DNA of 64,000 bases. It comes from Liolophura sinensis. Its lineage: Eukaryota; Mollusca; Polyplacophora; Chitonida; Chitonidae. This document shows, piece after piece, positions 7,301-48,608 of this stretch. The translations under genes and the position numbers were made by a program. The first letter of the stretch is position 1, and each line of letters opens with the position of its first letter. The DNA lies in assembly GCF_032854445.1 (NCBI RefSeq), contig NC_088304.1:26970732-27034731 (forward strand), given 5' to 3'. Below the pieces are notes generated by a model. The model saw nothing but the letters and a program-made list of their open reading frames with translations, made no database searches and was not told the origin of the DNA.

Positions 7301-7309
7301 AACACGGTG

Positions 7310-13763: not shown

Positions 13764-13907
13764 CTCGTAAAAAAAGTTTCCTGCATGGCGTATAGTTTGA
13801 TCAACCTTCATCCATCCTTGGAGTTAACTGACTTCAATCTTATTTTCCATACATTTATGAAATGGTGTATTTTCTTTCTTTACGATTTGTGGCTTGTATT
13901 TTCAGGA

Positions 13908-14001
13908 ATGACCCGTTGGCTTGTATTATGGTTGGTTGTGGGTTTGGCTGCTGTTTACCAATGTCAGTCGGAACGCGCAAAACGAGATGAGGACAGCTCA
14001 G
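13908..14001 (+). CDS. Pif-like gene, coding exon 1: signal peptide
   Basis: The acceptor TTGTATTTTCAG ends at 13905 and the ATG follows two bases later. The peptide begins MTRWLVLWLVVGLAA, a typical hydrophobic secretion signal ending near CQS, then ERAKRDEDSSG. RAKR fits the furin consensus R-x-K/R-R, so a very short propeptide may be removed. The donor TCAG|GTATGG leaves phase 1. An earlier in-frame ATG exists, but it lies upstream of the acceptor. Confidence 0.82.
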
Positions 14002-23000: not shown

Positions 23001-26000
23001 AGCTTTCTGATTAGTTTTAGAAAGAACAGTTCATAACAACAAGTCGTTAGTATAGAATAAAACAAAAAGTTAATACTTAAGAAATACAAAATAATCTGTC
23101 TTCGACCATATTATATACATTCCTAAATGGAAACATACGGACAACACGTAATGTTACATTTGTCCTTAAACCATGTATTTGAATGTGCCAGGCTGGTATA
23201 TATCTTGTAGAATTTTCTAAATTATGTCGTATACCGTGTCTTCGTGTTCTTTAGCTGTTATGTACAGAGCTTTAAAAAAATGGAATGGTGCATAGCAGGA
23301 GACCAGTTTTCTGATTTTTTCCTTGCTTTTTGTATTCCCATTTACCACTGCGGTGTAAAAGCATTGCAAACCAACAGATATTATCTGCATTGTGGAATGC
23401 ATTTGCACTTTTCGCGAATTGCATTAAGGCTGTTGGGAACGGAGATGGAGTAAAAGTGAGATGAGAGTTAAGTATGTACAGTGTACATTTTATGTTGGAA
23501 AATGATGCAGATATATATTATGAAGTAAATGTAGACCGCGACAGTTTAATTGACAAGTAAAATCTCGTTAAACAACAGAACCTGGGTTACTTGGTAACTT
23601 TTCTGCGTTTGTTGTGTACAACGAATTCTATGTGTCATTCAAAAACAATTTTTTTTTTCTTTCTGAGAAATTTAAACACTGCAAACCATGATATCTGCGT
23701 CGATACTGCGGACTCCATCAAATATAACATATCCTCTTCACATGCATAAAGGCAGTGCTAACAAGAATTCATTCTTAAGATCTATGTGGAGTGTTTTTAA
23801 GCATATGTGCCAAGGTTTATGAATCACACATGCAAAAAATAAGTTGGAGAAAAAAATTACAATTTCATTAGGTCATTGAAAATGCTTATGTAACTATATA
23901 AATAGCAAGTGAGGTTTTATGTAGCTGAGAGTCAACCATCGGATAATGACAAGGACAGTGAAGAAGCCAACCCTTCGCAGCAAGATTTTGGGACTGCCCA
24001 GCCAATTTTTCCACAAAGACAACAACACACAGGGCCTGTGCTAGGGATTCTCCAATCAGGTCATATTCCTCAACAAAAAACCCTTGTAGCCGTGCCAAGA
24101 ATATTGTCTGGAAGCTACGCAGATCAAAGTAGCAATAAAGCAACAAATCTCGCAGACGTCGACAGCAAAGAAATCAAGCCTTCCTCGGCATCATCAAAAC
24201 AACCCTCGGCTCAGGCACAAGATATCTCAGTTCCTAAACGAGTCTGGTCAGATGGCTTCCATTCCAAGCGCCAGGAAATTGTATCAGATCGGCGACGAAC
24301 CGTTCCTGTTGGCTCTACCAGAGTGTCTTCGAGCAATCATGTGGTTGCGAATACGAGAGCGTCATCAAATGCTGACGACGATGAGAGCAAAGAGGCACCG
24401 CCCTCGCCGTCAGTCCAGCATGTAGCGGCTGAAACACAAGTTAGATCCATCCCCGGACGTGTGCCAATGGTCACTGTTGAACGGCGTTACCCGATTCCTC
24501 GTAGCAGACTACCTGTGGTTGCAGCGAGGATACCTGTCGCATCGCACACTGAAAAACCTGCAACGGACGATGATGAAAACGACAGCAATGAGAGCAATGC
24601 ACAACCATCTGCGACATTGCACAAACCCGTCGCACGGCCGTACAGACCGCCAGTTTATCCTAGACCCGGGCCAATGGCCGTGGTTGTACCTAGACACCTG
24701 GTACCGGTTCCAAATCAGCGGCGGGTGCCAGTAGTTGTGCCTCGACCTAAGTTACCGGTCCTTGGTCAGCGACAAATGCCAGCAGTTGCTCTCCGTCCTA
24801 TGGTACCATCACCTGCCCAACGACGGTTGCCAAAAGTTGTACCTCGAGTCCAAGTTCAGTCAACAGAGCCATGGTGGGCCAAGCTTCAGCATCGACAATG
24901 GTCAGGAGTACAACAGGGTGTTGTGCCAGGTGTACAGGGGAGGCCATCTGTGGTTCCGAGACCACAACCTGTCAAACCTAGACCAGTGTACCCCTCTTCC
25001 CATGTTCGACCATTCATGCATATTGTACCAGCGGTGCCGGGGACAATCCAGGGTGGAGACACAGCAACAAAGAGCAGTGAGCAGTTCTTCTTTTGTTCAA
25101 TCATATATCAACATTACAAAGGAGGTGTTAATACATGGTCATTAATACAGAAAAGATGTATTATGCCATTGACTTTATCACTCGTAAAGGCCATTTGTAA
25201 CTTGTAACGTGGGGTTTCATGCATTGTAAGAGCTGACAATAAGCTTAAAGCTGAAAAAAATTTCTGTGCATTGCAACTACATTCGTCTACTGAAAAATAG
25301 AGAAAACAAAGACCATCACACTTTTGCTTCTGGCTAATCTTTCATCTTCACCCAACACAAGTTTGCATGCCATATGAATTCCAGGATGAAGGATATCTTC
25401 ATATCATAATCTAATACAGGCGAAGAAATCGATAAATCCGACAGTGACGAGAGCACCGGAAGCGTGGAGACCGTTAAGAAACCAGCACCGTTACCACCTG
25501 TCAAACACATACCGGTTGTATCACTCCGGGTCCCTGCTCCTCGGGTGACACCACGGCCAGTCAGTGTCACGAAGGCTCCTACATGGCCACACAGACCAGT
25601 TACAGCGCCAATCGTCAGCCCAATTGTACACATCTCCACCCCAAGGCCGGTACCCACGACCCAGCGACCGCCTGTCGTGACCCCCAGACGCTTACCAAGA
25701 CCAACGCCGCGTAAAAAGATATTTGTTCCGTGGAGACCTCCGCCAACGACAGCAAAACCCATTCCAACCCAACCACCAGCGACACCAAGACCGTCCACCA
25801 AAGCTCCACAAGTCCAACTCCAAGCGTCAAGTAAGCCGTCGCCACAGTGATCTCTCCTGATCTGACGTTTTAAAGGCTATATTACATATCCCGAATAGTA
25901 ATTTATTTATTTATTGTTTTGGTGTTGTACTCATGAATATTTGACTTATACGACAGCGGCAAGCATTATGGTTGGAAGAAACCGAACACAACCCGGATGA

Positions 26001-32000: not shown

Positions 32001-35000
32001 GGCACAGGTACCGACTACGTGCTCTACAACATGAGACGGCTTTTCTTCTCCGAGGGGAGAAGCGGAGTTCCGAAGATCGGCGTCCTAATGACGGACGGGC
32101 GCGCTAGAAACCCTTCCTCCGCCATAGAACAAGCCAGGATGGCTAAGCTCGAGGGTATTACTCTGATCACTGTGGCTTTGGGCGTGGTCACCAACGCGCT
32201 GGAGCTCCGGGCGATTGCTTCCACCCCACGGGACGTTGTGCTCAGACCCACACCTGTTGGAATCTTACGCCTCATCCGCTCTAGGTCCTCCATTCGCTGT
32301 TCAGGTAAGAGTGCTTGACGTGAACACTTTCTTGCTGTTGCCATTCTTCACTTTTATCCATTGTTTTGCTTTGTATAAAGCATCATTGATTTGCTTATTC
32401 TTAACTGGCTTTGCACATGTAAGCCTTGCATCAAGCGGTGTCTGTCTACTTGCCCTTTTTATGTTGGCTGTTGTTTTCCCTTGCTCAAAACATCAGTCAT
32501 TTGCTTATTCTTGTTTAGCTTTCGTAACGCACGCACAAAGCATTGCCTTATATCAGTGTGTGCTATATATATATTTTTTTATTATTATTAACTGTACTAC
32601 GATAGCCCTTAACAATATATGCAAAAGTACAACTGCACTGGAAGTGAGCAATAGCATCTGTGTTAACTACTAATCTGTAGTATTCAGTACGTTATTGCTT
32701 GCTTCGCCATTTATTACAGTCCTTTATTCTGTGAATTATAAAAATATTTTCACATAAAACACAAATTTGTTCTTTGTTCATATAACGATACACGTAAACT
32801 TGTACTTCAACACTTGCTTGTTTGAGAAGCAGGTCTGACAAAATTTCCATTCCTGTATTACTGTCGTTGCAAAATGCTAAGTACATTTTTGTCCTATTTG
32901 AAAGGAATTCTTTAGGAGTTAAGGTTATTCTTTTTAGAGAAGAACACGTATTGAAACACAAAAAACAATATAAACACGTATATTAAATGCCTGGAGTTGT
33001 CAGTTTAAAGAAAAAGACCTTTAAAAATTGAAGCAGGCATCCCTAAATAGACAACTTAAAACCATGCATAAATATTCATCCATTTATTTTTTTGTCGATT
33101 TTTGTGGAAGAGGTTAAAGGGGTTCAAACATCTGAATTCTAAAGTGAGCTTTATGGACAATACTATCACAGTTTAGGAACTCTGAGGCCGCAGTAAGTTT
33201 TTTTCATCTCTAAGCACGACACTGACTGTTGGAATAACTCTTTGTACCCATGAATAAACTGTTACTGAGATAATATTCATAAAAATTTCTTCCTTCTGGT
33301 GAAAATCAGAAAGAAAAGGTGATGTGACGTCAGACTTCTTACATACCGTCAGTGTGGTTCATAAAGCCCACCATAGTATTCAAATAATTGAACGCCTCTT
33401 AATACTCTTCAAAAATCTGTAAAATAAATGAAAGTATTTTTAAGCATAGTTTTCAGTTGTCTGTATGGTGAACCTTAGTTCATATTTTAGCTTTCTTTAC
33501 TTTAAATACTTGATCATTTTTAACGCCGTACTCCAGAGTGTATGGTTGGGATAAGTTTTATTTGTGAACGAAATCGTGCAGAAGTCAATGAATATCACTG
33601 CCCTTCGCCAGGCAGCTGCAGAGGTCGGCGAAAATCACTGGTCTTTGCCAGACAGCTGCAGAACAGAGAACGCATAATCGCTGGTGTTATGAAACGCCGA
33701 AAAACATGGAAATGTTAGGATGTTGTCTCTTTTTTTATCCCAGCAGTTGTCAAATCATAACTAACAACAGCGCATAAAAAATGAAGCTAATAGAACAATA
33801 CATTACTTCCACTAACACTGTCGACTTCTCGACGAGCGTAAAATCTTTGTAATGTGAATATGTACGGTTTTTGCACAAAATACGTATCCAAAGGTTTATG
33901 GGGAATGCTTTATACCATGCTTTATTCTGCTTCAGCACACCATTTCTTTGTACAACTGGTTGAGGGTTTCTCCTGTTATTATGCACATTGCACTTGCTGG
34001 CTTATATTTTCAGAGCATGTTCAGTTGTCCACACCATCTGCAGGGCCACAAACGTTCCAAGACCCTCTTACATCGTCAGGACCAGAACCTTACCACGAAC
34101 ACCCCCGTTATCAAGATTCATATTCACCTCCTAACTCACACCTCTTTAATGTAACACCCTCACCCTCAATGCCATCGACTCTACCGCCTAATGGTTTATA
34201 CCATTCTCTTAGGTCAAGGCCAGCTCCTAGTCCAGAGTCATACTCTTCTTCGGAGCCTCGACCTTACAGAGAATCAGCGCCATCCCCATCGTCGTACACA
34301 TCTCCTAAACCATCCCAGCCCTCTGGCTTACAGGTTTCCCCTATGATTCACGCTTATGTTGGGTCAAACACTTCCCCGACTCCAGGTCCTTCCCACGGGG
34401 CCCAATATCCATCCACACAACCGCACACATCTCCTGGGCCAATCCCATCTTCATCGACAAGTTCACCCTCGACAGCTGATCCATACCAACCTCAAGGTTC
34501 AAGCCCATCTACAACTGTACGTTCATCCCCGGGTCCAATCATTTCATCAAATTCATACAAATTTCCAGATTCAAAAACTTCTTTAGTTTTTAGCACCAAC
34601 AAGAGTCAAAGCACTTCTTCAGCTCTAAACACTTCTCCAAGCACATTCTTACGTCCAAACACTTTTGGAGTTCTAAGCACTTCCTCAGTCTCACACACTT
34701 CCCAAATTCCAAAAATATCATCAGCTATAAGCACTTCCACTGATCCAAGCTCTTCTGCAATTGTAGATATTTCACCAAGCACCTCTTCAGGTCAAAGCCC
34801 CTCAGGTTCACGCACTTCACGCCCAAGCCCAATGCAACGCTCAAAACCACTTCCGTCATCAAGGCCAGCACCACGCCCAATTTCAGTTGATTCACGCAGG
34901 TTTCCATCCGCATGGTCATCTGCTTCTGCCAGTATTCTTCCAGCTTCAAGCCTAACCACATCTCCAGATCAACGGCTATACCTATCCCCAGCTCCACCAC

Positions 35001-38000
35001 CATCCCCATCCCCAAGTCGACAATCATCCCCATCCTCAAGTCGACAATCATACCCATCTCCAGGCTTAGAACTCTCTCCATATCCAGGTTCAAAACCACC
35101 TCCCTCAACAGGTCCGCGGCCATCTCCATCCCCAGGTCCACGGCCTTCCCAAGCCCTAAGCCCAAAGCTAGTCCCTTCCCCAGGTTCAGAACCACCCCTC
35201 TCATCAGGTTCACAACAGTCTCAATCTCCAAGTCGACAGCCTTCCCCATTCCTGGGTCCAAAACTAGTCCCACCTTCAGGCCTACGTACACCCCCCTCAC
35301 CAGATATACATACACCCCCATTCCCAGGTCTACATATACCCCTGTCCTCAAATTCACACCACTCCTCACAGCCATTTCTTACGCCAGAGTCAGGTATGCA
35401 ATTTTATGTTTGAGCACCAAACTTAACCATATTATCATGCTTGCATTTTTCTTATGCTTTTAAGCTATTTCAATGTGCATGCTTTATATATTCAGACTAA
35501 GTTGGAAACCTTGTAAATATCCTTTTACGAAATTTGAGCAATGTAAAAATAAATAGCTGATTTTATTTAAAGCGTTTCTGTTTTCCGTAGTCATAAACAC
35601 CACAAGTGACAAACCACCATTTTTACCAATTCTTTATTTCTCAAGGTTCATTTACAGATACACAATTGCCTAAATTCACGCCCTAAATTCACGCCCTGCT
35701 CAGCTCCTTAGTCACACTTTGCACTCACTGAGTTTCAATTTTCAGGACCTGGGCACGACTCACCCTCACTGTCGCACCCTCCTCACTGGTCAGGTAGGCA
35801 CTGTGATATAGATATTTGTTGGCCAAGCACAGATGTTTGTTGGCTCTAGCACAGATGTTTGTTGGTTCTAACACAAATATTTGTTGGTCCCAGCACAGAT
35901 ATTTGTTTGTCCCAGCACAGATGTGTGTTGGTCCCAGCACAGATATTTGTTGGTCCCAGCACAGATATTTGCTGGTTCCAGCGCAGATATTTGTTGGCCT
36001 AACACAGATATTTGTTGCTCCTAGTACAGATATTTGTTGGTCCCCGTGCAGGTATTTGTTGGTTTCAGTACAGATATTTGTTGATTCTAGCACAGATATT
36101 TCTTGGTCACAGAACAGATATTTGTTGGTCCTAGTACAGATATTTGTTGGTCCCAGTGCAGGTATTTGTTGGTTTCAGTACAGATATTTGTTGATTCAAG
36201 CACAGACATTTCTTGGTCACAGAACAGATATTTGTTGGTCCTAGTACAGATATTTGTTGGTCCCAGTGCAGGTATTTGTTGGTTTCAGTACAGATTTTTG
36301 TTGATTCTAGCACAGATATTTCTTGGTCACAGAACAGATATTTGTTGGACCCAAAACAAATGTTTGTTGGTTCAGACATATGTGGTGCCACATGCCATCC
36401 CTATCTTGTTCTGCTCACAACATGTAACATGTGTGCCGAGAAGAACAGCATAGAGACCTGTCATGCATCTCGCTGCCTGATATAACTTCGTTAAAACTTT
36501 GATGCAGCATATTGATGTTTTTTTAAATATGAGTTGCACCTGGAATATTTAATAACAAATTAATGTATAATACATATGACTCAAACAAGCATGTTCCACT
36601 TTGATTGTCGTCTGTGTCATAGCACCACAATCGACACCTTCTTTCCGTAATTTATTGCTATAAAGCCTTTTACTGTAATGTTCATATTTCGTTTTAAAGC
36701 TGCATGCAATTTTGTCACAGCTTTGGCACACCCTTGCACCTGTTTGCTTTTGTTTTCAGCACATGTTCCAAAGTTTCCCTCAGGACGAGGTATGCACTAA
36801 TCTCTGACACTCCGCACATTATAATGTTCCAATAGTCTATTTCTTTTAGAGAGTCGCCGATTTTAAGCTGTCAGTAAAATCAAACATATTCGCTACAAAA
36901 ATTGCCTTTAGTCAGTGATACGTAACAACATAAGCTCTAGACATTGATATGTTTGAAGTTCACATTATTACAAGGAAAATGAAGTTAGAACAGTTTTTTT
37001 TGTAATTTACAATGTTATTTACAATGTTAGAAAAGATTTTTCCACAGGTTTTTGAATTATTATGACGTCTTCCAAAGCAATGAGTTCTTGGCGTCGAAAC
37101 TGAGCTTATGCAGTTTAACATTATGAATTAGAGGAAGTGTTCTAACTTGATTTTCTTTGGAAGAATATGGACTTCCAACATATCCATGTGTAGAGCTTGT
37201 GTTGTTACGTATCACTGACTGAAGGTAATTTTGGTAGCGAGTAGGACTGCTTTTACAGACAGATGAATATAGGAGACTCTCTAAAAGAAATAGACTATAT
37301 AATTTATAATGCATTATGTTACAGTTATTTCCTCTTTTATGAAATTATCAGAGCTACGCTGTGTTTCAAATGATCATTAGGGCATAACAGAATTTTAATT
37401 TATATCGGTATATTCTAAGTAAGGGAAATGCTAATAAACAAATAACTAGTGAACTGCAAAGATAGGTCTGTTCATTGTGAATTATCTTTCTGTGCCGGTA
37501 CAAATATACACCTCTGAAAGTGGTAAATGGAGTCTGCTAGTAACTAAAAATGAATTCAAGCGATTAAGTATTCAATATTTTCGATCGATTTCTGGAAATA
37601 CTGCGTTTAGCTACAAAAATGTGGAACGATTTTCATGACGTGGCGTGCAGGTTACCGAGGGGAAGTAACTCCAAATGCCCTACGTTTTCAAAATATCTTT
37701 CAATTTATACAACTATTGTGAATCACCTTGATTCTCACATTTGCAAAATATGGTTTAAACGATGAGAATTATTGAATCTACTCTTATCTCTTACTCGATA
37801 ATCTTTCAATTGTCTTTAAAGAAAAGCTACTTGCTAACTGCACACTTTGCACCGCTTGTTGTTGGTTTACAAGGCACATTTACACACCCCTGCTTATACT
37901 TTCAGTACCTCTACCCACACCACCCTTACGGCTCCACCCTACACAAGGTAATAGGGCGCGGTGTCTTGTAAATATACATATAGCTACTTAAATAATGGTA

Positions 38001-41000
38001 CATATAAATATATTCCTGTCTTAATAATAAAACATTGACAGGATTTTTGTGTTACTTCGAAATTCATTCGGCATCTGCATGGCAAAAACCACAGTCGATG
38101 GGTTTTTAATAATTATTCATGTGTACTTACAGGTAAAAAAAAACTTTTGTGTGAACCGTGATTTTGGCTACTCTTTAAGACCAGTGCATTTGAATATAAT
38201 GAATAAAAGTAGAGCATGCAAGCGTATTTATGGTATATTAAGTCTCAGTTGAAACTTACTGATCATACTTCTTTTGATCCGGTTTAAAAAGAAAAAAAAA
38301 CTAATCAGTTCTGTCATTCAGCACTAATAAAGATCTGCGTAATTTTAGTTAGTGGGCTGTGATGTTTTGGTCACACGTTTTATAGCTGCACGCTTTTTTT
38401 TTTTATTAAATGCACACTTTTGCACAGGTTGGCTTTTATTTTCAGGACCCGTCTATAACCCACCACAACGTCCGCAGTCCACACGAGCACCAGGTATGCA
38501 CAGTGCACCTCGGCTATAAACAAGCTTTGTTTTTGTTTCGATGTCATATTATCAAAGCAAAATCACAATACTAGAGTAGATCAAATAGCATATTTTGTTA
38601 TATACAGTAACAATAGCTATGGTGATACCATATGCAACTATGATTGATTGCATTCCAGCTAAACAACCAGGAATTGCTGTGAACAGCGGCTGATTCGTGA
38701 ACATGTACATATTGGTGTTGTCACTGCAGAAGTTGAGATGCACGCTTTTCACAATTGTTCGGCTTAAAATGCAACCCTTAGCACACCTTGCTTTTGTTTT
38801 CAGCACCCGTCCCTAACCCACCATCACGTCCGCTCCCCACACCAGCACCAGGTATGCACAAAATTGAACTACACAAGTTTTGATTTCTGTATTTATATAT
38901 TATTTAAGGTATTGAAATTTAAACCACATGAGATGTGTTAGTATACAGGTTCGTGTGTTACACACGAGTAACAACAAGTGTTCTCATATCTTATACAACT
39001 TAAACCAGCTACTGCAATGCACAGGTCAAGACAATGGTCATCACAATGGTTGAATTGTTCACGGGAGCACCATGTTAAAGTCCAAGCTGGGTCAGTGTTA
39101 AGATTTTAAATTGGAGGAGTTTGAACTTCTGCACTTTGAGCTCATTAGAAGGTAACGCAAAATACAAGAAAATTTAGTGGCCTAGCATGTAGTCCTATGG
39201 TCTGTTTCTTTTAGCAAGTCGCCTGTATTCAGCTGTCTGTAAAATCAGTCATATTCTCTATCAAAATTTGCCTTTCGTTAATGACTAACGCTAATTTTGG
39301 TGGCTAGTATAACTGACTTTACAGACAGCTGAATCTAGGCGACTGGCTAAAAAAATAGAGTGTAATTGGTGTGTTCGGTATAGCATTCCAGTGAGGCAGC
39401 ACTAAAGTTATGTTTTCAGTGAGCTTGGTCTGCTAGAAGGAGAGGCTGTGGTGATACCACAAGCCTTGTTAAAAAGTCAACCACATATACCCAGAGTCCT
39501 GTTTAGAAAATGCCGCGGTGTTGCTGTATTGTCTAAGGTTACCATATTCACGACTACAGACCTCTCAGCTTATGCTGTTTGGCAAAAGAGTGATCTAACT
39601 CTTGAGTAATCTAACATCATGGGTAAAAACCCTGCTGTTTATGTAATTATAGTTAGTATTGCTGGGTCCCCATGTGTTTAGATGCACCACGCTCCCCACA
39701 ACTACTTGGCTTTACGTGCACACTTTTGTACAACTGGGATTTTGTTTTCAGCACCCGTCTCTAACCCACCATCACGTCCTCTTCCCACACCAGCACCAGG
39801 TATGCACACATTTGCACTGTAAAAGTTTTGGTTTTGTCATTGATATCAACGTATTGATGACAATAGAAGAGTTTTCTGGTGTCTTATACAATTTGATGGA
39901 CGGTTACAGCAGTGTTGGTACCGGTACTTTTTTCGTTTTGAGCTCACTGGAAATGATCAGGCAAAGTACAGGTCGATACAGTGACTATATTGTGAGTGAG
40001 TGGGGCATCCTAGCAGGTTTATTCTGCATAGCATTCCAGTGAGGCAGCACTGTAGTTCTGTCGTCAGTGAGCTGGCACTGCTAGAAGGAGATGTTATAGT
40101 GATACGAATGCAATAAAATTGAGATAAAGTTTATACTGACGTTACATAAAGTTAAAGGAAACCTCTTTTTTTCACAGTTTTTCACAGTTTCCTTTATCAC
40201 AGCATTTGCTATGAAATGTTTTCTGTTGCTATATATAATCTAGTTTTATATTAACCTAGTCACGACTAAAGAACGACAAATAGGACAACCTTTGAAGTAA
40301 AATCCATTGTTTCTGTTCTATATGTCGGTAAGAAAATTCTCAGCCTGTTGACGTGACTTTAACAATGTGTCCACAACAGCAATCCCATAGCTATTTGCAT
40401 GTGAATATCACGCTCTGCACTCTCGTTTGCTTGTGATTTCAGTTCCCGGCCATCCCCGACCCCCACAGTATCCCCAACCCACCCGCATACCCGGTGAGAC
40501 CTCTTTCAATAATTCGCACATTATGTAGAGATTATAAAGCTTCAAATTTGTTTATTAAGTTTTAAGTGCTCAAAAATATTTATATACCTATACGAGAGGG
40601 AGATCCAGGGGTTAAACACACCACTCTCCACTAGTCTTCCATAGAAATGGAGAGGAAAACCAGCATCACTGCAATTGCATTGGTGAGAGGTTCCTTGGTT
40701 ATTGTGCTGCGCTAGCACTCTAACCAATAGGCCACGGATGTACCAAACACTTAAAATACTACAGCACAGAGAAGTTTACAAAGACCTATAATTGTTATTT
40801 TTGGAGAATGTGCCGGTTTGCATATAGTTAATATGTTTGTTGGGAAGCCTAGCCGTTGTTTAAATTATTTCCAGTTAGAGTATGAATATTATACTACAAA
40901 AACATACCGTGGTCTACATCTACTGTGGCCTCCCGATGGCAACGTTGTCATGTCATCTCCCAGAATTAACGAAATAAAACGCAAAATAATTAAAACTTTG

Positions 41001-44000
41001 AGAATTGTTGTAATAACAATATAAAAATTGTCTAGAACTAATTATGTCTAAGCCATGGGTGAAGAAAGAGTTTGCACATTTTTAAACCTTTAGATGAATT
41101 AACAGTTGAATTAAAACCAGCCACGTGTGACCATCTGCCAACTTCACACTGCCGTCTTTGTTAACGACGTAATGCGTCCGTCTACCTTCTCTTTCCAAAG
41201 GCGTTACCCCTACATCTAGGAGGCCTGGGTTCCCTAGCACTGGACTACCCCCAAGATTCACTACTCCACGACCCAGAAGAGGTACGGCTACAAAAATGCC
41301 TTTGTCACATACCGTAAATGACGTCCAATTTCGTCCATGACTTACGTGACTCATCTTGCTGTAAGAGAATGTAAGAGTTCTGTTGATCCCAGAAAGGTGT
41401 TTTGAGGTTTATGTTGAAGAATGATATCCAACTGGAGGAAAATGTAAGCATTAGCACTAAACATAGTTCTAGATCATTGATCGTGTTTTATGCTTTATCA
41501 TCACCGCTTTTAACGTGATCACTAAGCGGGATATATGTTGCTCACCATGATTATCCGGTTTGGTGGTTAGGACTGGTCCACGGCGCTGGTATAAACGGCT
41601 GCCTATCAGTGTTCTTTCACTAAGCCCGTATACACATTGAGCTCGCTCTGTGGGTAAAAATGTGCGTCTTACACGTGGACAAAAGTTTTCAAGAATTTCA
41701 ACTATCGGTATTTTAATCAGGGAACAAAGGTTTATATTACAGTTCAAATAGAAACAAAGTCAAAACTATTGTTAGCATAAAGTTATGACCTTTATACTAA
41801 TATCCGGGCTCAAATGGCCTCATTGTAGGTCCGTGTGATGACTGCAAGTTCCTGAACGGAATCGGCTACAATCCCCACGAATCGGTGTGCTCTTATTACT
41901 ACCAGTGTTTTGACAACAACGGCGTGCTTGTCCCCGTTCAGCGACGGTGTCCATTCGGGTTGTTCTGGGACCAAGGAGACTTGACCTGCAAGAACGCTGC
42001 GGCCGTGGACTGTGCTACAGGTGAGATGACGCCAAACACCGGAGCTTTAAACTCAGCGCAATCTGACCGTAGTGTTGTGTCGTAAGCGCTCGTGTATGCG
42101 AAATACAGACACGTCTTATGTGGAATTCAGTCAGTTGGACTTTAAAGTCGTAAGTTCATTGGCGACTAGGGCAAACTTCGTACGACCAGTTGAGATGAGC
42201 CTTCTGGCTTGTTTTCGATTGAATGTACCCTAATCATACAGAGGCGTTGACTGAAAAGACATCTCTGAATACAGCTCACATTTGACATTGTGTATTTCAC
42301 ACTACGATATTTTCCGAGATCATATTTCCACGTTGTCTATATCGAAGGATTGGTGTGATCGGATCACGAATTGATTTTACGTAGGAAACTTCAATGTATC
42401 AGTCGTAAGTCTAATTTGGATGTTATAAAACATTTCTTTGTTATAAGTTGAAAGTAAAGTCACTAGAATTTTAAAACCAGACAGAAACACCCTATAATTC
42501 GTAAAAAACAAAAAGCAACACCTACTGCACCAGTTATACAGGCAAGTGCTATAGTATTTCAGCTTTGTTCATTTCTTGATATTCTTAAACTATTTATATT
42601 GAGGCATTGGCCTGTAAGATTAGTCTCCCTTGTCCATGTTTTCACAACCGCTAGTTATCAATAGCGTGATTTCTTCATATTTACTCTGAAGCTCTATTAT
42701 TTAGTACTAACATGTATATATGGGTGCTGTCTCCGCTTCTTAGGTACCGTTGACAATAAGCGGTTGACTCCGCTCGTGTGGCCGTTTGCGACCTGTTCAG
42801 TGAACGCTCAACGTTCAGTGGAGATCACTTGTCTTCCTCCTATACGGTGTATATAACAATGCTTCACATGAGGAAAATTGGTCAGTAAGTTGCCATAGAC
42901 CGATGATTTTTACCTGGAACTTTGGATTGCTTCACCCATAATGCTGACCACCAACTTATATAAACAGACTGCAATAATCATTTCATTGTTAAACTCACCA
43001 ACTTACCATGTTCATTTGTATGTTTCTATTTCAATAATCGGCTTACAGATCCGTGTAAGCGTAGCCCTCGATCTTACGGGGCTCCCGAAAACTGCCGTGC
43101 GTATTGGCAGTGCCGCTGGGGCAGAACCGTCAGAGCACAGTGCTGTGCCTACTCCCACAGGTTTGATCGGACCAGGGGCTGTATCTATGACAACAGCTGT
43201 ACTGTGCCATGTCCCCCTAACCAGCCTCCACGACCAGGTAAGCCGAATTCAAGTCACTTTTTTATACGCCCATATTACGTGTCGTAGTATATTTCGGCGT
43301 TGTCCGTCTGTCAGTCTGCGGAAATTTTGGAGTAAACTCTGCATATCCAGTACCTAACTTTAACAGAGCTACTCTTTACCACCAGGACAGAATACGGTTG
43401 AAAACGAGTAACATAAATTTAAAATTGACAGTGCTAATTTAGCCTTGTAGACAATGTCAACATTGTATTTGAACAACTCATTCAACATTTAAAATTGCAC
43501 TATTACTAGCTATTTTCCTTCACAACCGCCAATTAAGTATGTCATTTTTGGATATTCACTCTGAAATGGACTATCCATGCGATAAGTTAGATTTCAGAAT
43601 TTGCTACTTAAACTGCGGTAGTACGTCAGGCGATTTGTGTGATACCCCTTCTAAGGTGTGCTGTAGGCCTAAATGCCATGCCCGTGTAGTCTCATATTTG
43701 TATTTTATAATTTACGAACACAAAGGTATGAATCACAAGATAATTAACGAATGAATCACAAATATAACTATCGGTTTAGACGAATCTGTCAAAATAAAAA
43801 CCAACCCAGTCATCGTGCAGTCTTTCTAGGTAACCGGCTCAACCAATAAACACATGGTCTCGTCGTTCCATTCCAGATGTTTGCAACAAACGGCCGTACC
43901 CTCAAGATCAGACTCAGTACTACGAGGACATAGGTCAAGGTCGAACTATCCTAAGACGTTGTGCCCCAGGGACCATCTTCGTGCCTGCTCCCACATGCCG

Positions 44001-47000
44001 CTGTGACAGAGGCACCGTTGTTCCCCCGATGCCATGGGGTACGTACATAGAGATACAATTTGAATTCGTCTAAGTATTTAGTACTGGACTTCTTGATGTT
44101 ATTTTTTCACATATGCTCAGTGATGCCTTACCTCAAAATTATGGTGTTCGTAATTACTTCAAAATTCTGGTATTAATAATTACGTAAAAATTGTTGTCTT
44201 GGTAATTACGTCAAAATTCTAGTATAGGTAATTACGTCAAAATTCTAGTATTGGTAGTTCTTTCAAATTAAATTCATAAGACTTTCCTTAAACTAGCCTG
44301 CTTTTCTTTCTCTTTTTTTCTGTGTTTTTTAAGTAAATGCCTTCAATAATCTGACACACTTTTTAAAACAAATGAATCTAGACAAGGAACAGGACCACTT
44401 TTTTCACAAAATTTCAATCGTAAATTTTCTCCTACAAAAATGACAATATGTAGATTATTTTGTCATAGATCTACAAGAGTTACTAAAACAAAACACAAAA
44501 AGGTGGCTTACGAAGTCCTTGTGAGATTGGTCACAAATGTCTATGTATCTTATCAATATTGTAACTGATGATCAATCATAAATACGCACAGAAATATTAG
44601 TGTAGAAGGAGCCTTATGTGTTGGTGCCTTTGCGAGAGTCTACCCCAGAAAGAATGCCCCCAAACGCCCTTGGCACCAAATGGTCATTTCCGGGAAACCA
44701 GTGGTACACAAAACTAATACGTTACCCATTTGGTAAATGAAACCCATTTTGCTATAAATATATTGGGTAAATAGATATTGTGAAATGAGAGTCTTGACCA
44801 ATTAAGGTTAATTAAAAATGTCCAAAACTATCTACCTTAAACTACCTTACTATTCCAGCAACTAAAAATTAATTCAACACCATTTCACTAATTTAAATTC
44901 TCCACAAGTTGATGTATAGCCCCTTCGCACCTTCCAACGACCTCCCGAAACGTCTTCCAGAGCCAGTTTGACGTACGCCTTTATATGTATCCTATACAGT
45001 GTATAGTACATAGTTAAATCTTCAAGAAAATGGTGTCACTTTTCAGAGCCTTAGCAGATGCAAATTTTGCGAATTTTTGCGAATTTTGACCACATGTGTC
45101 TTAAATTTTTATTAAGTACATTTTGATGGTGTTGATTGCATACCGGTATAATTTATGTGACAGTTGATGACCGTGTGTTTTATGTAATCAGTTGGATTTT
45201 ATTTGAGATGAAAACTTTGTAGGTGAGACCCGCCTTCGTTACATAAATGAAGAAGTAAATTAAAAACATCATATTTGCATTGGACATGGACATAAAACTA
45301 AAACTGTTTTTACAAAAATAACATTTCTTCCTCGCAGAATGCAAACCAGATCTGTACTTTCCCTTTGACAACGACCTGCTGGACAAAGCGGATGACAAGA
45401 CGCCGGCCTTTGCTGACCGTGTCACTATAGACCGTTCCCCCAGAAACGGAGCCGTAGGGGGTGGGGCAGCCAGGTTTAACGGTAATGCCAAGTTGCTCAT
45501 CTGGAAGTACGCCAACATGGAGTTCGGCTCCAAATTCGTGATACGTTTACGTTACAGGGCTTTACCGTCGTCCAATGCATCCTTGGAAGAGGGGATAATC
45601 ACGAACAGCGACTGTAGATTACCCTGCTCTGTGGCCATATCCTACGACAGACAAGACAACACAACGACGGCCAAAATCAGGACAGAAGGCACGGGCGTCG
45701 TGCGAAGTCTACTGGCACATGTAAGAACGCTATTCGTTAGAGTTAACACTCTCTGTCGAAATATTGAAAACGATTTCTGATAAGGATTACAATTCCTCTA
45801 TCCATAATCTTCAGAGTCATTTGTAAGAGAGTACATTATTTAACACCAGTATAAATAAATAAAAATATAAATAAATAAATAAATTACGAATTAAGTGTTA
45901 CAGATTGACTAACATTTTTAGTATCAATGCACAAACATAGGGCATTTAAATACTGTCATAACAAATAGAATATGAGAGAATACGTTTCGCGTTACAGAGT
46001 CCTGGTTGGAATGCTGTAGAATACAGATATGACGGGAACCGACTCACCTTCTCCCTCAATGGGAACTCCCAGAGCTTAGCAGCAACTGGTAAGTTGTTGT
46101 GTACAATAACAGTGCATCAGTCATACTTTGTTTGTTGTAGTAGTCAGTAAGACTGATAAAATGCACTTAGAAGACGTTTTTCGTTGACCATTCCATACCC
46201 CTCTACGGACAAAGTTTATTAAGCCATACTTGTGGGATTCTTTAGTATGGCGTAAAACACCAATCAAATAAATAAATCAATCAAACATACTGGTGGGAAC
46301 TACGCAGTATAACTTGGTGGAACTATTGTCTTCTAAAGTTAAGAACATTTTTTGAATAACAGGTCGTTTCATTTATGAAAGTTTTGAGTTACACACTCGG
46401 CCAATGTTTATCATATTTAAATATTTGTTGTGCACACAGTTTCATACATCATCTTTACTGCAATAAGTATGTTAGCGATGTACTGTAACAGTTTACGTCA
46501 CCAACCTCTATAGCTGAATGAGAAGAACGGGCTCGATTAAGTCATCAATAAACTAAACCTGACGTAGAACAAATTATGGTAATGGCCGCAGCTGACTGCA
46601 TCATCATTTTACCATACCTTTATAGCAGATAGGAAATGATGTATCCACCGCGGCTGTTCCCACACAAAATCAGACCGGCGTAATGGGAAAAGGCAAAAGT
46701 TCATAAGAATATGAGATACTAATGGAAAAATAAATTAATATAGAATAAACAAGAATATTGCCCTTTTATGTTAATTTCTAACAGTTTCAAAGACCCACGT
46801 GTGTGTTATCTTTTAATACAGGTAACATTGTCAAGGTGCCGGCCGCCTTGCAGATAGGAACTGGCTGCATGGGGTTTTCCCCTTTCACAGGTCTTATTGA
46901 CGAGGTAAGTCATAACGTATTACAATCTTATTACTCACAATGGATAAATTTTTGTGAAGAGGACATTGTCCTAAATGGGAAACTGAAATATACTCTTGCA

Positions 47001-47241
47001 TGCATGTAGAACTTCACAACCAAATCAGGTAAATATGCAAAATTTTTTAAGAGTTCGAAAATGTAACGATTGCTACAGAAATGGCTTATCAAACTGTGTT
47101 AAGCCTTCCATCTCACAGTACAACGGATATACACACTTTTTGTTCATGATAGCACTGTATAAACAGCATATTCATGTATGTTTTGAATTAATTCAGGATT
47201 TCTTTTCTCCTCAGCTATATGTCTACAAGTGCATACCTTGA
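13908..47241 (+). CDS. Pif/BMSP-like secreted shell-matrix protein (about 1,794 residues, 25 coding exons)
   Basis: Conceptual joining of 25 exons gives an uninterrupted frame. Domains in order are: signal peptide (residues 1-21) and an RAKR furin-like site; acidic and basic Pro/Arg/Val blocks (about 50-670); a VWA domain (about 672-854) with intact MIDAS (DGSDS, a Thr in GGTGTD, Asp in MTDG); a Ser/Pro mucin-like segment (855-1314); seven proline-rich mini-exons (1315-1419); three peritrophin/CBM14-like modules (1420-1600); and a laminin-G-like domain (1601-1794). VWA, chitin-binding and LG modules in that order are known from molluscan Pif and BMSP proteins, which act in the extracellular organic matrix of shell. 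The long N-terminal region before VWA and the mucin-like insert are unlike classical Pif. The Asp-rich Pif80 repeats are absent, since the third chitin module splices straight into LG. Exon boundaries rest on GT/AG sites and phase. Alternative splicing of the many phase 1-1 exons is possible. The family call is fairly sure. Orthology to Pif itself is not. Confidence 0.85.
17931..18005 (+). repeat. Short interspersed repeat with GTGA head
   Basis: (GAGT)n is followed by GGTTTAACGTCGTTCTTAAC and TCATATGACGACG. A related copy occurs at about 21966-22052 with a TTTG-rich head, TCTTAACGTCGCTTTTGTCA and GATATAACGACG. The layout recalls common short molluscan repeats. No terminal inverted repeats were resolved. 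Confidence 0.55.
19194..19640. mobile_element. Element with inverted arms (dispersed repeat family)
   Basis: TACAGCAGAGAGTGTAAAAC...AGTGTGATAG at 19194-19238 is matched in reverse complement by CTATCACACTGTCC...TTTACTCTCGGTGCTGTA at about 19595-19639. Internal sequence shares TTGTCAGTTTACCTCAG and TTTTATTCTAACTGTTCATG with the copies at 6720-7300 and 62870-63220. A MITE-like or foldback transposon is the simplest reading. No transposase is present. Confidence 0.6.
21719..21778. repeat. 12-bp tandem repeat
   Basis: Five copies of (A/G)GTTTGTCAGGAA-like units. The repeat makes short open frames on both strands that have no other support. Confidence 0.8.
22097..22247 (-). mobile_element. SINE, 5'-truncated, with 13-bp target-site duplication
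   Basis: The tail half of the common SINE lies at about 22110-22234 in minus orientation, with GATTGGTGTTTTACGCCG and TACGACGGCGGCCAGCATTA visible. GCAATGTATAAAT is present on both sides. The tRNA-like head is missing. Truncation at the head with a flanking duplication is the normal outcome of LINE-driven target-primed insertion. Confidence 0.75.
22326..22382 (+). CDS. Pif-like gene, small coding exon 2
   Basis: TTTTTTATGCCTTCAG precedes 57 bases that stay open in the gene's frame, and ACAG|GTGAAT follows. It is phase 1 on both sides like its neighbours and codes for 19 residues (GLSSHGMGMDYPIPHHPQT), a His/Pro/Gly-rich stretch in keeping with the surrounding low-complexity region. It is short, so a chance match is possible. 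Confidence 0.6.
23925..25076 (+). CDS. Pif-like gene, exon 3: acidic/basic Pro-Arg-Val-rich region (384 codons)
   Basis: The acceptor TTTTATGTAG and donor AGCA|GTGAGC give phase 1 to phase 1. The segment begins with an acidic patch (SDNDKDSEE). Two further patches follow (NADDDESKE and ATDDDENDSNES), separated by Pro/Arg/Val-rich stretches. The second half carries about four 20-residue repeats with the core VPxPxQRRxPxVVPR. No globular fold is evident. Ser-x-Glu and Ser-Asp-Glu clusters would suit secretory-pathway kinases and calcium binding. That part is inference. The frame stays open past the donor, so a retained-intron form ending near 25207 cannot be excluded. Confidence 0.8.
25420..25830 (+). 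CDS. Pif-like gene, exon 4: acidic patch plus Pro/Val/Arg/Thr-rich stretch
   Basis: The acceptor is CTAATACAG and the donor TCAA|GTAAGC, phase 1-1, 137 codons. It opens with EEIDKSDSDESTGS and continues in PVxTPRPVPTTQRPPVVTPR-like text rich in Pro, Thr, Arg and Val. It repeats the acidic-then-basic layout of exon 3, so the two probably share an origin. A long open frame on the opposite strand here is a composition effect. Confidence 0.82.
25901..26024 (-). mobile_element. SINE fragment in intron 4
   Basis: TTTATTTATTTATTG tail side followed by ACTCATGAATATTTGACTTA and TACGACAGCGGCAAGCATTA, through ACCCACGACCGTCCGTAGG. This is the tail half of the common SINE in minus orientation. Confidence 0.75.
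26357..26440 (+). CDS. Pif-like gene, exon 5: acidic patch
   Basis: The acceptor CCTATGTTTAG and donor AAACA|GTGAGG are phase 1-1, 28 codons. The sequence includes NSSDEDDESTEESAQ, the densest acidic/serine cluster of the protein. It lacks the basic Pro-rich half seen in exons 3 and 4. Confidence 0.75.
26830..27005. repeat. Tandem repeat of about 55-60 bp, three copies
   Basis: The unit includes ACCATAGAAATCATG...GTATTTAATCGTTCATGCCA and ATTGTCATATC. It occurs three times within the intron. It has no coding role. Confidence 0.7.
28016..28045 (+). CDS. Pif-like gene, exon 6 (10 codons)
   Basis: Acceptor TTATATTTGCAG, donor CCAG|GTAAAT, phase 1-1. It encodes FADARQRRP-like residues. The very small size lowers certainty, but sites and phase agree with the neighbours. 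Confidence 0.6.
28425..28560 (-). mobile_element. SINE fragment in intron 6
   Basis: Contains TATTTCACTTATTCGACGGC and GGCCAGCAATATGGTGTG, then AAACCGGGCGGAGCCCGG. This is the tail half of the common SINE, minus orientation, degenerate at the tail. Confidence 0.75.
28620..29445 (+). repeat. Possible retroelement 3' tail
   Basis: The segment ends with TTCAATAAAGTGGGTTATTATTATTAC, a terminal simple repeat after an AATAAA-type signal that resembles LINE or retrocopy 3' ends. A 40-base part (about 28775-28815, around AACATGGCGGACGTTGGTT) recurs inverted at about 30175-30225. The open frames inside (28726-28935, 29069-29326) show no recognised domain. Confidence 0.35.
29614..29676 (+). CDS. Pif-like gene, exon 7 (21 codons)
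   Basis: Acceptor TTTGTACCACAG and donor ACAAG|GTAAGT, phase 1-1. It encodes PRPPYSHDSESVESGGHMGQ, again joining a Pro-rich start to an acidic Ser/Glu cluster. Confidence 0.75.
30692..30742 (+). CDS. Pif-like gene, exon 8 (17 codons)
   Basis: Acceptor CTGTTTGCAAAG and donor TTCAG|GTACTG, phase 1-1. It encodes TDSGSYEGHYHGGSDS, a Gly/His/Ser/Tyr-rich stretch. Confidence 0.72.
31097..31168 (+). CDS. Pif-like gene, exon 9 (24 codons)
   Basis: Acceptor TTGTTAATACAG and donor ACCAG|GTGAGA, phase 1-1. It encodes SHESDEDDSIEDG followed by YVYYHPPSQP, the last acidic patch before the VWA domain. Confidence 0.78.
31756..32304 (+). CDS. Pif-like gene, exon 10: von Willebrand factor A domain
   Basis: A single 183-codon exon (acceptor CCTTTCCCAG, donor TTCAG|GTAAGA, phase 1-1) carries a whole VWA fold. 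It starts ACPAVADVVIMIDGSDS, where the DxSxS metal site is intact. It then has the GGTGTDY threonine and the IGVLMTDGRARN aspartate, so all MIDAS elements are present. The end, near RSRSSIRCSG, supplies a Cys that can pair with the first one. VWA domains of this kind bind proteins or collagen-like ligands in a metal-dependent way. In Pif/BMSP proteins the domain also lies N-terminal to the chitin-binding modules. Confidence 0.93.
32305..34013. other. Intron 10 of the Pif-like gene
   Basis: AT-rich intron. A weak SINE-tail trace (AACGCCGTACTCCAGAGTGT) lies near 33522. No extra exon was found. Confidence 0.6.
34014..35393 (+). CDS. Pif-like gene, exon 11: Ser/Pro-rich mucin-like segment (460 codons)
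   Basis: Acceptor TTATATTTTCAG, donor AGTCAG|GTATGC, phase 1-1. The product is dominated by Ser, Pro, Thr and Gly with almost no Cys. Its second half has a loose repeat of about 12 residues with a PSPGSRPSPSSG-like core. Dense Ser/Thr beside Pro suggests O-glycosylation, as in mucin-like linkers of matrix proteins. That is inferred from composition. Third-position bias to A/T and C-rich first positions make the opposite strand open for over 200 codons, which is not a gene. Confidence 0.87.
35746..35793 (+). CDS. Pif-like gene, exon 12 (16 codons)
   Basis: Acceptor TTTCAATTTTCAG, donor GTCAG|GTAGGC, phase 1-1. It encodes PGHDSPSLSHPPHWS. It is the first of a run of proline-rich mini-exons with similar upstream introns (TGCAC...TTTTCAG). 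Confidence 0.72.
35815..36385. repeat. 22-bp minisatellite with 110-bp higher-order unit, in intron 12
   Basis: The basic unit ACAGATATTTGTTGGTCCCAG C repeats about 25 times. From about 36010 on, five variant units recur as a 110-bp block (for example TCCTAGTACAGATATTTGTT at about 36128 and 36238). Open frames of 86-142 codons on both strands result from the repeat lacking stops. Confidence 0.92.
36760..36789 (+). CDS. Pif-like gene, exon 13 (10 codons)
   Basis: Acceptor CTTTTGTTTTCAG, donor ACGAG|GTATGC, phase 1-1. It encodes HVPKFPSGR. The upstream intron end resembles those of exons 15-17. Confidence 0.62.
36833..37298. mobile_element. Foldback element in intron 13
   Basis: Long imperfect inverted arms, about 36833-36985 and 37120-37298. 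The left end is TAGTCTATTTCTTTTAGAGA and the right end its reverse complement. Both arms contain AGTCAGTGATACGTAACAAC in opposite sense. No coding sequence. A related smaller element is at 39201-39360. Confidence 0.8.
37906..37947 (+). CDS. Pif-like gene, exon 14 (14 codons)
   Basis: Acceptor CTTATACTTTCAG, donor CACAAG|GTAATA, phase 1-1. It encodes PLPTPPLRLHPTQ, similar to exons 16 and 17. Confidence 0.68.
38446..38493 (+). CDS. Pif-like gene, exon 15 (16 codons)
   Basis: Acceptor CTTTTATTTTCAG, donor CACCAG|GTATGC, phase 1-1. It encodes PVYNPPQRPQSTRAP. Same length and layout as exons 16 and 17. Confidence 0.75.
38804..38851 (+). CDS. Pif-like gene, exon 16 (16 codons)
   Basis: Acceptor CTTTTGTTTTCAG, donor CACCAG|GTATGC, phase 1-1. 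It encodes PVPNPPSRPLPTPAP. Near-identical to exon 17, differing at one residue, with related flanking intron sequence. Confidence 0.78.
39201..39360. mobile_element. Small foldback element in intron 16
   Basis: TCTGTTTCTTTTAGCAAGTC...CAGCTGTCTGTAAAATCAG on the left is mirrored by CTGACTTTACAGACAGCTG...GCGACTGGCTAAAAAAATAG on the right. It shares the TTTCTTTTAG(A/C)(G/A)AGTCGCC end with the element at 36833-37298, so they belong to one family. Confidence 0.8.
39752..39799 (+). CDS. Pif-like gene, exon 17 (16 codons)
   Basis: Acceptor ATTTTGTTTTCAG, donor CACCAG|GTATGC, phase 1-1. It encodes PVSNPPSRPLPTPAP. It is a recent duplicate of exon 16. The intron after it repeats ATTCCAGTGAGGCAGCACT, which also occurs before it near 39387. 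Confidence 0.78.
40443..40493 (+). CDS. Pif-like gene, exon 18 (17 codons)
   Basis: Acceptor GCTTGTGATTTCAG, donor ACCCG|GTGAGA, phase 1-1. It encodes PGHPRPPQYPQPTRIP, the last proline-rich mini-exon before the chitin-binding modules. Confidence 0.75.
40585..40735 (-). mobile_element. SINE head fragment in intron 18
   Basis: Minus-orientation remnant of the tRNA-like half: TGCATTGGTGAGAGGTTCC, GGTTATTGTGCTGCGCTAGC, ACTCTAACCAATAGGCCACG. The tail half is missing or too diverged to see. Confidence 0.65.
41829..42020 (+). CDS. Pif-like gene, exon 19: chitin-binding module 1
   Basis: Acceptor CTCATTGTAG, donor CTACAG|GTGAGA, phase 1-1, 64 codons. Seven Cys; the last six fit the peritrophin-A/CBM14 spacing C-x14-C-x5-C-x13-C-x12-C-x7-C. 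Aromatics in CSYYYQC and FGLFWD occupy the usual chitin-contact positions. In the family this fold binds chitin outside the cell. Confidence 0.9.
43049..43237 (+). CDS. Pif-like gene, exon 20: chitin-binding module 2
   Basis: Acceptor ATCGGCTTACAG, donor GACCAG|GTAAGC, phase 1-1, 63 codons. It reads DPCKRSPRSYGAPENC, then CRAYWQC, QCCAYSHRFDRTRGC and NSCTVPC. The C-x5-C pair and the aromatic FDR segment match CBM14, with extra Cys. The longer open frame that overlaps this exon in another phase has no domain and is a shadow. Confidence 0.87.
43877..44038 (+). CDS. Pif-like gene, exon 21: degenerate chitin-binding module 3
   Basis: Acceptor CATTCCAG, donor ATGGG|GTACGT, phase 1-1, 54 codons. 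VCNKRPYPQDQTQYYEDIG aligns with the other two modules, but Thr and Ile replace the C-x5-C pair. RRCAPGTIFVPAPTCRC keeps the later cysteines. One disulfide is therefore lost, and chitin binding may be weakened or changed. Confidence 0.8.
44130..44265. repeat. 28-bp tandem repeat in intron 21
   Basis: About four copies of GGTAATTACGTCAAAATTCT plus AGTATT, with the left copies degenerate. Confidence 0.7.
45338..45720 (+). CDS. Pif-like gene, exon 22: laminin-G-like domain, first part
   Basis: Acceptor CTTCCTCGCAG, donor GGCACAT|GTAAGA, phase 1 to 0. ECKPDLYFPFDNDLLDK opens the jelly-roll. GGGAARFNGNAKLLIWKYA and FGSKFVIRLRYRALP are typical LG/concanavalin-like strands. CRLPC and SVAISYDRQDN follow. 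Pif proteins also end with an LG domain. No Asp-rich repeat lies between it and the chitin modules. Confidence 0.88.
45998..46088 (+). CDS. Pif-like gene, exon 23: laminin-G-like domain, second part
   Basis: Acceptor GCGTTACAG, donor CAACTG|GTAAGT, phase 0 to 1. WNAVEYRYDGNRLTFSLNG is a classic LG strand pair (hydrophobic strand, turn, 'L-x-F-x-LNG'). Confidence 0.88.
46236..46290 (+). mobile_element. SINE tail fragment in intron 23
   Basis: TATGGCGTAAAACACCAATC followed by AAATAAATAAATC is the 3' end of the common SINE in plus orientation. Confidence 0.65.
46822..46904 (+). CDS. Pif-like gene, exon 24: laminin-G-like domain, third part
   Basis: Acceptor TTTTAATACAG, donor GACGAG|GTAAGT, phase 1 to 0. 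It encodes NIVKVPAALQIGTGC and GFSPFTGLIDE. The G-x-(L/I/F)-IDE ending is the usual last strand of LG domains. Confidence 0.88.
47215..47241 (+). CDS. Pif-like gene, last coding exon: LYVYKCIP and stop
   Basis: The acceptor TTTTCTCCTCAG is followed in phase 0 by eight codons and TGA. Joined to the previous exon it gives LIDE-LYVYKC, the expected closing strand and cysteine of an LG domain, which strongly supports this small exon. Confidence 0.82.
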   Translation, partial: LYVYKCIP

Positions 47242-48430: not shown

Positions 48431-48436
48431 AATAAA
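48431..48436 (+). terminator. Possible polyA signal of the Pif-like gene
   Basis: This is the first exact AATAAA I see after the stop codon, giving a 3' UTR of about 1.2 kb. No closer canonical signal was found. A nearer variant signal could be used instead. Confidence 0.3.
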
Positions 48437-48499
48437 TTGTAAAACTACAATATGTTTATGTCACTTTATTATAAAGCTATTAACACGGGAATTTCGAGC

Positions 48500-48580: not shown

Positions 48581-48608
48581 TCTATGTGCAGCACGGTAAA
48601 TCAGTGCA

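Follow-up and report, generated by a model that had tools for sequence, protein, structure and literature searches.

A probable Pif/BMSP-type matrix protein gene with a basic segment ahead of its VWA domain, located in a gene cluster of the chiton Liolophura sinensis

What kind of protein is encoded between positions 13908 and 47241 of the window, the stretch of 64,000 nucleotides of Liolophura sinensis DNA analysed here (contig NC_088304.1, positions 26,970,732 to 27,034,731 of the forward strand), and does it form one gene? Pif is the best-known nacre protein. Chiton shell genes have been little studied, and the accounts consulted here deal with one or two chiton Pif homologues. A preliminary description, made from the letters of the DNA, had read the locus as a Pif/BMSP-type protein of unusual layout, with about 620 residues before the VWA domain and a mucin-like insert before the chitin modules, as if the mineral-facing segment of Pif had moved to the other end. 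Our analysis indicates that the region is probably a single gene, called gene E below, for a secreted Pif/BMSP-type matrix protein with a basic front segment, a spacer and a chitin anchor.

A twenty-exon model of the gene

Twenty exons on the plus strand, from an ATG at 13908 to a stop codon that ends at 47241, join into one stop-free frame of 1,710 residues, and this gene model agrees with the start, the stop and the single unbroken frame read earlier. The exons are as follows.

13908..14001 (+): E1, start codon, predicted signal peptide, RAKR at residues 23-26 and a phase-1 donor; codon usage z 0.7
23925..25076 (+): E2, 384 residues, rich in Pro, Val, Ser and Arg, net charge +18, with short acidic patches; borders uncertain
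25420..25830 (+): E3, 137 residues, Pro 25%, pI 11.7, with an acidic patch at its start; acceptor 0.53, donor 7
29614..29676 (+): m1, mini-exon of 21 residues; donor 9 of 9; open in all three phases
31097..31168 (+): m2, mini-exon of 24 residues, strongly acidic; a candidate in phase 1 only
31756..32304 (+): VWA exon; Pfam VWA, 2.2e-21
34014..35393 (+): Ser/Pro-rich exon, 460 residues (S 27%, P 21%, T 7%); frame-length test; codon usage z -0.3
35746..35793 (+): p1, Pro-rich mini-exon; phase-1 candidate
37906..37947 (+): p2, Pro-rich mini-exon; phase-1 candidate
38446..38493 (+): p3, Pro-rich mini-exon, duplicated with its flanks
38804..38851 (+): p4, Pro-rich mini-exon; duplicate
39752..39799 (+): p5, Pro-rich mini-exon; duplicate
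40443..40493 (+): p6, Pro-rich mini-exon; phase-1 candidate
41829..42020 (+): CB1, CBM_14 chitin-binding module; Pfam 1.7e-7
43049..43237 (+): CB2, CBM_14-like; Pfam 2.4e-4, 21.6 bits against a cut-off of 22.1
43877..44038 (+): CB3, degenerate CB-like; same-position paralogue exons, e.g. that of B at 1.3e-10
45338..45720 (+): LG exon 1 (LG1); present in 14/14 family genes
45998..46088 (+): LG exon 2 (LG2); gene model and paralogues
46822..46904 (+): LG exon 3 (LG3); gene model and paralogues
47215..47241 (+): last exon, end of LG and stop codon; gene model

The modules run in the order signal peptide, E2, E3, m1 and m2, VWA, Ser/Pro exon, p1 to p6, CB1 to CB3 and LG, the LG ending at the stop codon. 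Seventeen of the 19 introns are in phase 1, and the other two (LG1/LG2 and LG3/last exon) are in phase 0. Since exon borders were picked as GT-AG and in frame, the continuity of the frame is not independent evidence, and most of the short exons can be read without a stop in a further phase as well. Synonymous codon usage was tested against a training set of 4,868 codons from the domains of the paralogues. It supported the VWA exon (z 9.7), CB1 to CB3 (6.1, 4.3 and 3.2), LG1 (6.5), LG3 (2.9) and E3 (3.4), gave little for LG2 (1.7), m1+m2 (1.9) and p1-p6 (2.4), and did not support E1 (0.7), E2 (1.6) or the Ser/Pro exon (-0.3). In the frame-length chance tests (SIGNIFICANCE), the E2 frame (383 codons) beat all 1,000 dinucleotide shuffles of its own sequence, and so did the Ser/Pro exon frame (459 codons; 1,000/1,000); the length of the E3 frame alone was not significant, being reached by 81 of 1,000 dinucleotide shuffles.

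The weakest internal splice sites of the model are those of E2 (acceptor pyrimidine value 0.40, donor 5 of 9), to be compared with best acceptors of 0.6-0.93 and donors of 6-9 for most domain exons of the paralogues; the donors of several paralogue VWA exons were not found under the same scoring rule. Splice-site scoring found no clearly better phase-1 pair for E2, which was retained in the model because of its frame length and position. These weak sites lower our confidence in the one-gene model and raise the alternative of two genes.

The sequence directly ahead of the ATG resembles an acceptor, which points to a possible 5' UTR exon upstream. A 32-bp tandem repeat (34.7 copies, window 12657-13765) ends about 140 bp before the start codon. 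The flanks contain six ORFs (at least 100 aa in 1-13600, at least 110 aa in 47300-64000), and the three of them scanned with Pfam gave no match over the cut-off. Frames with a YSRI..YDGGQ-like motif, seen by eye at about 28443-28583 and at 55504-55788 of the window and near 2225 of the fetched stretch of paralogue K, are probably pieces of a dispersed repeat.

The segment before the VWA domain

The VWA exon is preceded by 597 residues. The signal peptide, predicted in E1 from a hydrophobicity scan and the sequence, holds if E1 belongs to gene E, and cleavage after residue 21 would leave about 576 residues (22-597) ahead of the VWA. The long front segment announced earlier is thus real in the model, with 597 residues rather than about 620. 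Its description as acidic and basic blocks was correct as to the short acidic patches: within residues 22-597 there are six acidic windows of 12 residues, of which the first and second are adjacent, and the tripeptide S-x-E, a kinase site, occurs 14 times. As a whole, however, the segment is net basic (D+E 9.0%, K+R 12.8%, net +22, pI 10.1, Asp 4.9%); it is a basic polyampholyte, unlike an Asp-rich Pif80-like block. The only R-x-[KR]-R site of gene E is at residues 23-26, and none divides CB from LG. E2 gave no Pfam match, and a search of the whole L. sinensis genome with E2+E3 matched only these exons themselves, with no relative.

Two mini-exons, m1 and m2 (45 residues together, D+E 22%), bridge E3 and the VWA exon in phase. 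They were chosen from five phase-1 candidates in this intron, the other three being left unused, as were three mini-exon candidates in the intron between E1 and E2. Against shuffles, the intron before the VWA showed four phase-1 mini-exon candidates where 0.47 were expected, and one acidic candidate where 0.01 was expected. On the plus strand, and limited in length, the other phases gave three phase-0 candidates and one phase-2 candidate in the intron before the VWA and eight and four, respectively, in the intron before CB1; these mostly occupy the same slots, and one of the phase-0 candidates is acidic.

We looked at the possibility that E1 to E3 form a separate gene for a secreted Pro/Arg-rich protein ending near 25850, the exons from VWA to LG then being a compact Pif-like gene with its own signal exon. 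The E3 frame runs into a stop codon 18 nt beyond its donor (near 25850), which would allow the N-terminal exons to be the end of a gene of their own; the weak splice sites of E2 and the lack of any relative of E2 and E3 in the genome fit this possibility as well. The paralogues also speak for it. Signal-exon candidates were found 0.3-4.8 kb upstream of the VWA in 9/11 VWA-bearing paralogues (6/11 with strict settings, a relaxed re-scan adding 3/5, B weakly), with none in K and L in either scan, and no separate exon was found there between the signal candidate and the VWA (phase 1, at least 45 nt, site thresholds) that would correspond to such a long segment; the best candidate for gene E is E1, 17.8 kb upstream of the VWA and with four exons between. 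The strict scan missed a signal exon in five paralogues (A, B, F, K and L) too, so that finding none near the VWA of gene E is weak evidence. Several observations oppose the division: the E3 donor (CAA/gtaagc) scores 7 of 9, m1 and m2 bridge the gap in phase, with m2 acidic like the patches of E2 and E3, and no AATAAA or ATTAAA poly-A signal occurs within 2.4 kb after E3. In addition, the sole signal-like frame with a phase-1 donor between E3 and the VWA, outside the VWA frame, looks by eye to be derived from a repeat. We therefore consider two genes unlikely and keep the single gene as the preferred model.

The conserved modules, the spacer and the paralogues

Gene E has one VWA, and its motifs DGSDS, GTGT and TDG form what we take to be a complete-looking MIDAS. 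Downstream of it, the mucin-like insert proposed before the chitin modules was recovered as the 460-residue Ser/Pro exon and six Pro-rich mini-exons in frame. In the intron 35393-41830, six of the seven phase-1 mini-exon candidates are Pro-rich, where 200 shuffles give an expectation of 0.005 Pro-rich candidates, and the minus strand of this intron has no Pro-rich mini-exon candidates; three of the nine mini-exon candidates before CB1, all within a tandem repeat, were unused. p3, p4 and p5 are mutual duplicates in blocks of 107 nt, and between p4 and p5 the exon is 94% identical and the 60-nt flanks 45% and 63%. A 22-bp/110-bp tandem repeat occupies window positions 35810-36373, in the intron after p1, and its long frames on both strands are probably spurious.

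In the comparisons with Pfam, the VWA and CB1 were clear. CB2 fell just under its cut-off, the LG was also below the cut-off for Laminin_G_3 (6.7e-5, 23.5 bits, cut-off 27.6), and CB3 gave no CBM_14 match, its support coming from the paralogues. The three chitin modules proposed earlier are therefore of unequal standing, with CB1 clear, CB2 borderline and CB3 placed by paralogue exons. Among ten aligned LG sequences, that of gene E is the one that matched Laminin_G_3, the other nine being first exons only, and the LG profile found no match in the PDB at E up to 1. The published LG N-terminal motif (PMC11291548) has LG exons of the family as its 12 best matches among 3,987 gene-strand ORFs; LG1 of gene E ranks fourth (E 0.049), and the matches do not include LG1 of A or of M. 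The published C-terminal motif matched 8/14 genes, gene E excluded, and the joined LG of gene E aligns weakly with it. The LG is uninterrupted in the model and has no Asp-rich insert inside, as expected from the earlier remark that no Asp-rich part follows the chitin modules.

Gene E is the fifth of ten Pif/BMSP-type loci, A-J, that lie within about 474 kb (C10:26,824,843-27,298,443); ten matches to the first LG exon and ten to CB1 were found at C10:26.82-27.30 Mb. Loci A, H, I and J are on the minus strand and the other cluster loci on the plus strand. Genome-wide, CB1 gave 20 matches at E up to 0.001, gene E included, namely the ten of the cluster, eight elsewhere on C10, one on C3 and one on C6. 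Six CB1 matches, gene N among them, lie at C10:7.55-7.71 Mb and may represent a second group of related genes. The family set used here comprises 14 genes: E, the cluster members A-D and F-J, then K, M and N on C10 and L on C3. The detected modules keep the same order in 14/14 genes, not every module being detected in each. Five genes (A, F, I, L and M) have at best a marginal CB3; the fetched DNA of K and N yielded neither LG2 nor LG3, and that of A and I no LG3. For G and J, no VWA was detected in the fetched stretches, and the VWA matches in the genome include none near them. I and M have two VWAs each. Locus D (C10:26,958,544-26,963,774) resembles its neighbour C, has a split VWA frame and an in-frame TGA in LG, and is likely a decaying duplicate of C.

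Some paralogues have large low-complexity frames between the VWA and CB1. Among the frames listed, Thr/Pro-rich ones reach 3,007 aa in H, 2,118 aa in B and 1,464 aa in K, the last ending with CB1 in the same frame, and shorter ones occur in M and N; phase-1 donors were found for all five of these frames, weak ones in B and N, whereas acceptors were seen for those of B and H alone. Several members thus carry a mucin-like insert at this position. In A, C, D, F, I and L the gap from VWA to CB1 is only 0.5-1.6 kb, so that a large insert does not fit. This lack of room, together with the 17/19 phase-1 introns that make the inserts skippable without a frame change, speaks for low-complexity exons that are optional, in which case the main isoform of gene E may be a plain VWA-CB-LG protein. 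We hold this to be improbable, and continue with the full-length protein of the gene model.

The fetched DNA of all 14 genes was scanned for acidic inserts; apart from a short stretch in J, it showed none that is Asp-rich. The scan covered gene-strand ORFs of at least 22 aa in 30-residue windows with at least 12 D/E, was blind to exons below 30 codons, and was made on incomplete DNA (LG2/LG3 unlocated in K and N, LG3 in A and I, and a 5-kb gap in B). The stretch in J is in its CB2 exon, and J is without a detected VWA. The LG of J is also the best match of both published LG motifs.

Trees were built from L. sinensis genome sequences only, with no conchiferan sequence, and the published subfamilies lie outside their scope. 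In the VWA tree, six other VWAs are set apart (96/96) from a group made of gene E, the other 12 Pif-type VWAs and an array of 16 VWAs on C1. The forks inside this group are mostly unresolved, and its long end branches suggest that the copies are old; the Pif-type rows do not form one clade, as A joins the C1 array (88/74). The joined-domain tree places E, A, B, C, F, G and H together (86/92) and I with J (99/96). With LG1 only, the former group is recovered at 60/86, an unsettled bootstrap, and no sister of E is resolved. The joined-domain and LG1 trees do not include D, and the VWA tree could not take it because the pieces of its split VWA are too short. The C1 array itself (C1:65,114,268-65,136,607) is composed of 16 VWA frames, many with Pro/Thr-rich linkers, and at E below 0.1 neither a chitin exon nor an LG exon was seen in the 28 kb fetched. 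Another repetitive locus, C4:17,963,870-18,032,943, has among the matches listed 370-aa VWA frames every ~1,804 bp over ~70 kb, many with identical scores.

The sequence thus shows a frame that stays open across the modelled exons, the VWA-CB-LG order common to the paralogues and a place in the ten-locus cluster. With the CBM_14 module, the LG N-terminal motif and the VWA grouping within the genome, these data agree with the initial assignment to a Pif/BMSP-type protein.

A possible function and comparison with known Pif/BMSP systems

The protein of gene E would enter the secretory path by its predicted signal peptide and could be trimmed at the RAKR site that closely follows this peptide. Its chitin modules would anchor it to the chitin scaffold of the shell plates or of the girdle sclerites, and the Ser/Pro exon and the Pro mini-exons would form a stiff, probably O-glycosylated spacer between the VWA and this anchor. 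The S-x-E sites in the acidic patches of the front segment could be phosphorylated, and the segment is more probably a partner of acidic matrix proteins than an Asp-rich type of mineral binder. By analogy with the pearl-oyster Pif VWA, which binds other matrix partners in pull-downs (PMC11291548), the VWA and LG may bind other matrix proteins or glycans. Expression in girdle or plate tissue and the binding partners of gene E are extrapolated from other species.

Published members were compared through their descriptions in the text of the papers cited. PMC11291548 distinguishes eight Pif/BMSP subfamilies, with a chiton protein at the base, and describes Pro-rich low-complexity stretches between VWA and CB (zone 3) in Pif and BMSP, long inserts from VWA to CB in PifN, and a long insertion between the signal peptide and the VWA in PifS1 proteins. 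As inserts at both positions have already been reported there, the idea that the layout of gene E falls outside the described range is not supported. One could then ask whether gene E is the chiton orthologue of bivalve PifS1, with which it shares a long insertion before the VWA (about 576 residues, if E1-E3 belong to the gene). According to the same text, PifS1 is found only in bivalves, its insertion is Ser/Thr- or Gln/Asn-rich, whereas that of gene E is Pro/Val/Ser/Arg-rich with acidic patches, and its low complexity is mainly in zone 1, whereas gene E also has a zone 3 insert; we regard this orthology as very unlikely.

In the preliminary description, an acidic Pif80 part with LG follows the chitin modules of established Pif; in PMC11291548 the Asp-rich insert is a trait of the Pif subfamily (the C. 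gigas member excepted), sits inside the LG and has 21-26% Asp, and complete LGs are described in PfuPifN and PfuPifCCP. A transfer of the mineral-facing part of Pif to the N-terminus, for which the acidic patches before the VWA with their S-x-E sites and the lack of an acidic insert after the chitin modules would speak, is hardly credible for a segment of net +22, pI 10.1 and 4.9% Asp, in a family whose fetched DNA holds no Asp-rich insert able to move, save the short stretch in J, and with A. granulata likewise described without a PIF80-like part (PMC7850002).

The ten-locus cluster, its VWA-less members, the two-VWA member and the very large mucin-like frames suggest an expansion of the family in the second great branch of molluscs, the one without nacre. 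The cluster makes it testable whether the molluscan ancestor had one or several Pif/BMSP genes, and which low-complexity inserts go with the plates and which with the girdle sclerites. A bolder scenario would have the molluscan last common ancestor already possess a Pif/BMSP gene cluster, kept and diversified in chitons, in which gene E founded its own subfamily and its phosphorylated basic/acidic N-terminal segment, not an LG insert, contacts mineral or acidic matrix; we put it forward as a speculation with little chance of being right. No chiton Pif cluster was found in the titles and abstract openings searched, and a term search of PMC11545220 returned no Pif terms. Elsewhere, a tree in PMC13394694, of proteins that are described there as different from Pif, includes one VWA-CB protein of L. 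sinensis, and PMC9635652 reports BMSP/LamG3/Pif groups in cephalopods.

Gene E shares with the Pif/BMSP family as a whole the predicted signal peptide, the VWA, CBM_14 and CBM_14-like modules, the C-terminal LG and low-complexity inserts in zones 1 and 3; it differs in coming from a chiton and, as far as the descriptions go, in having large inserts in both of these zones and none in zone 4, inside the LG. With Pif proper (Pif97/Pif80) it has the VWA, CB, LG order in common, but it is without the Asp-rich insert in the LG and without an RxKR site between CB and LG. PifN resembles it by the long VWA-CB insert and, in PfuPifN, by the complete LG; the PifN insert, mainly in zone 3, is poly-Thr, whereas that of gene E is made of the Ser/Pro exon (S 27, P 21, T 7%) and Pro mini-exons. 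BMSP has tandem VWAs (four in bivalves; a single one in cephalopods and scaphopods) and gene E has one, and the LamG3 type, as described, has CB and LG without the VWA that gene E possesses, G and J being the members that resemble it.

Two systems can be compared at the level of the genome, again by their descriptions. In oysters, the Pif_LamG3 cluster likewise brings together, on a single chromosome, Pif genes and LamG3 genes that have no VWA, and domains have been lost; it is ascribed to tandem duplications within bivalves, from one gene of the molluscan ancestor (PMC10543319), whereas the cluster found here belongs to a chiton. In A. granulata, a chiton too, two homologues have been reported, g24122 (Pif) and g24110 (Pif-like), both Pif97-like, without a PIF80 part and with their highest expression in the girdle (PMC7850002), compared with ten clustered loci and others in L. 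sinensis. Gene E is a well-supported member of an established family, with a layout of its own, a basic segment before the VWA and a Ser/Pro spacer after it, within an unexpectedly large chiton cluster.
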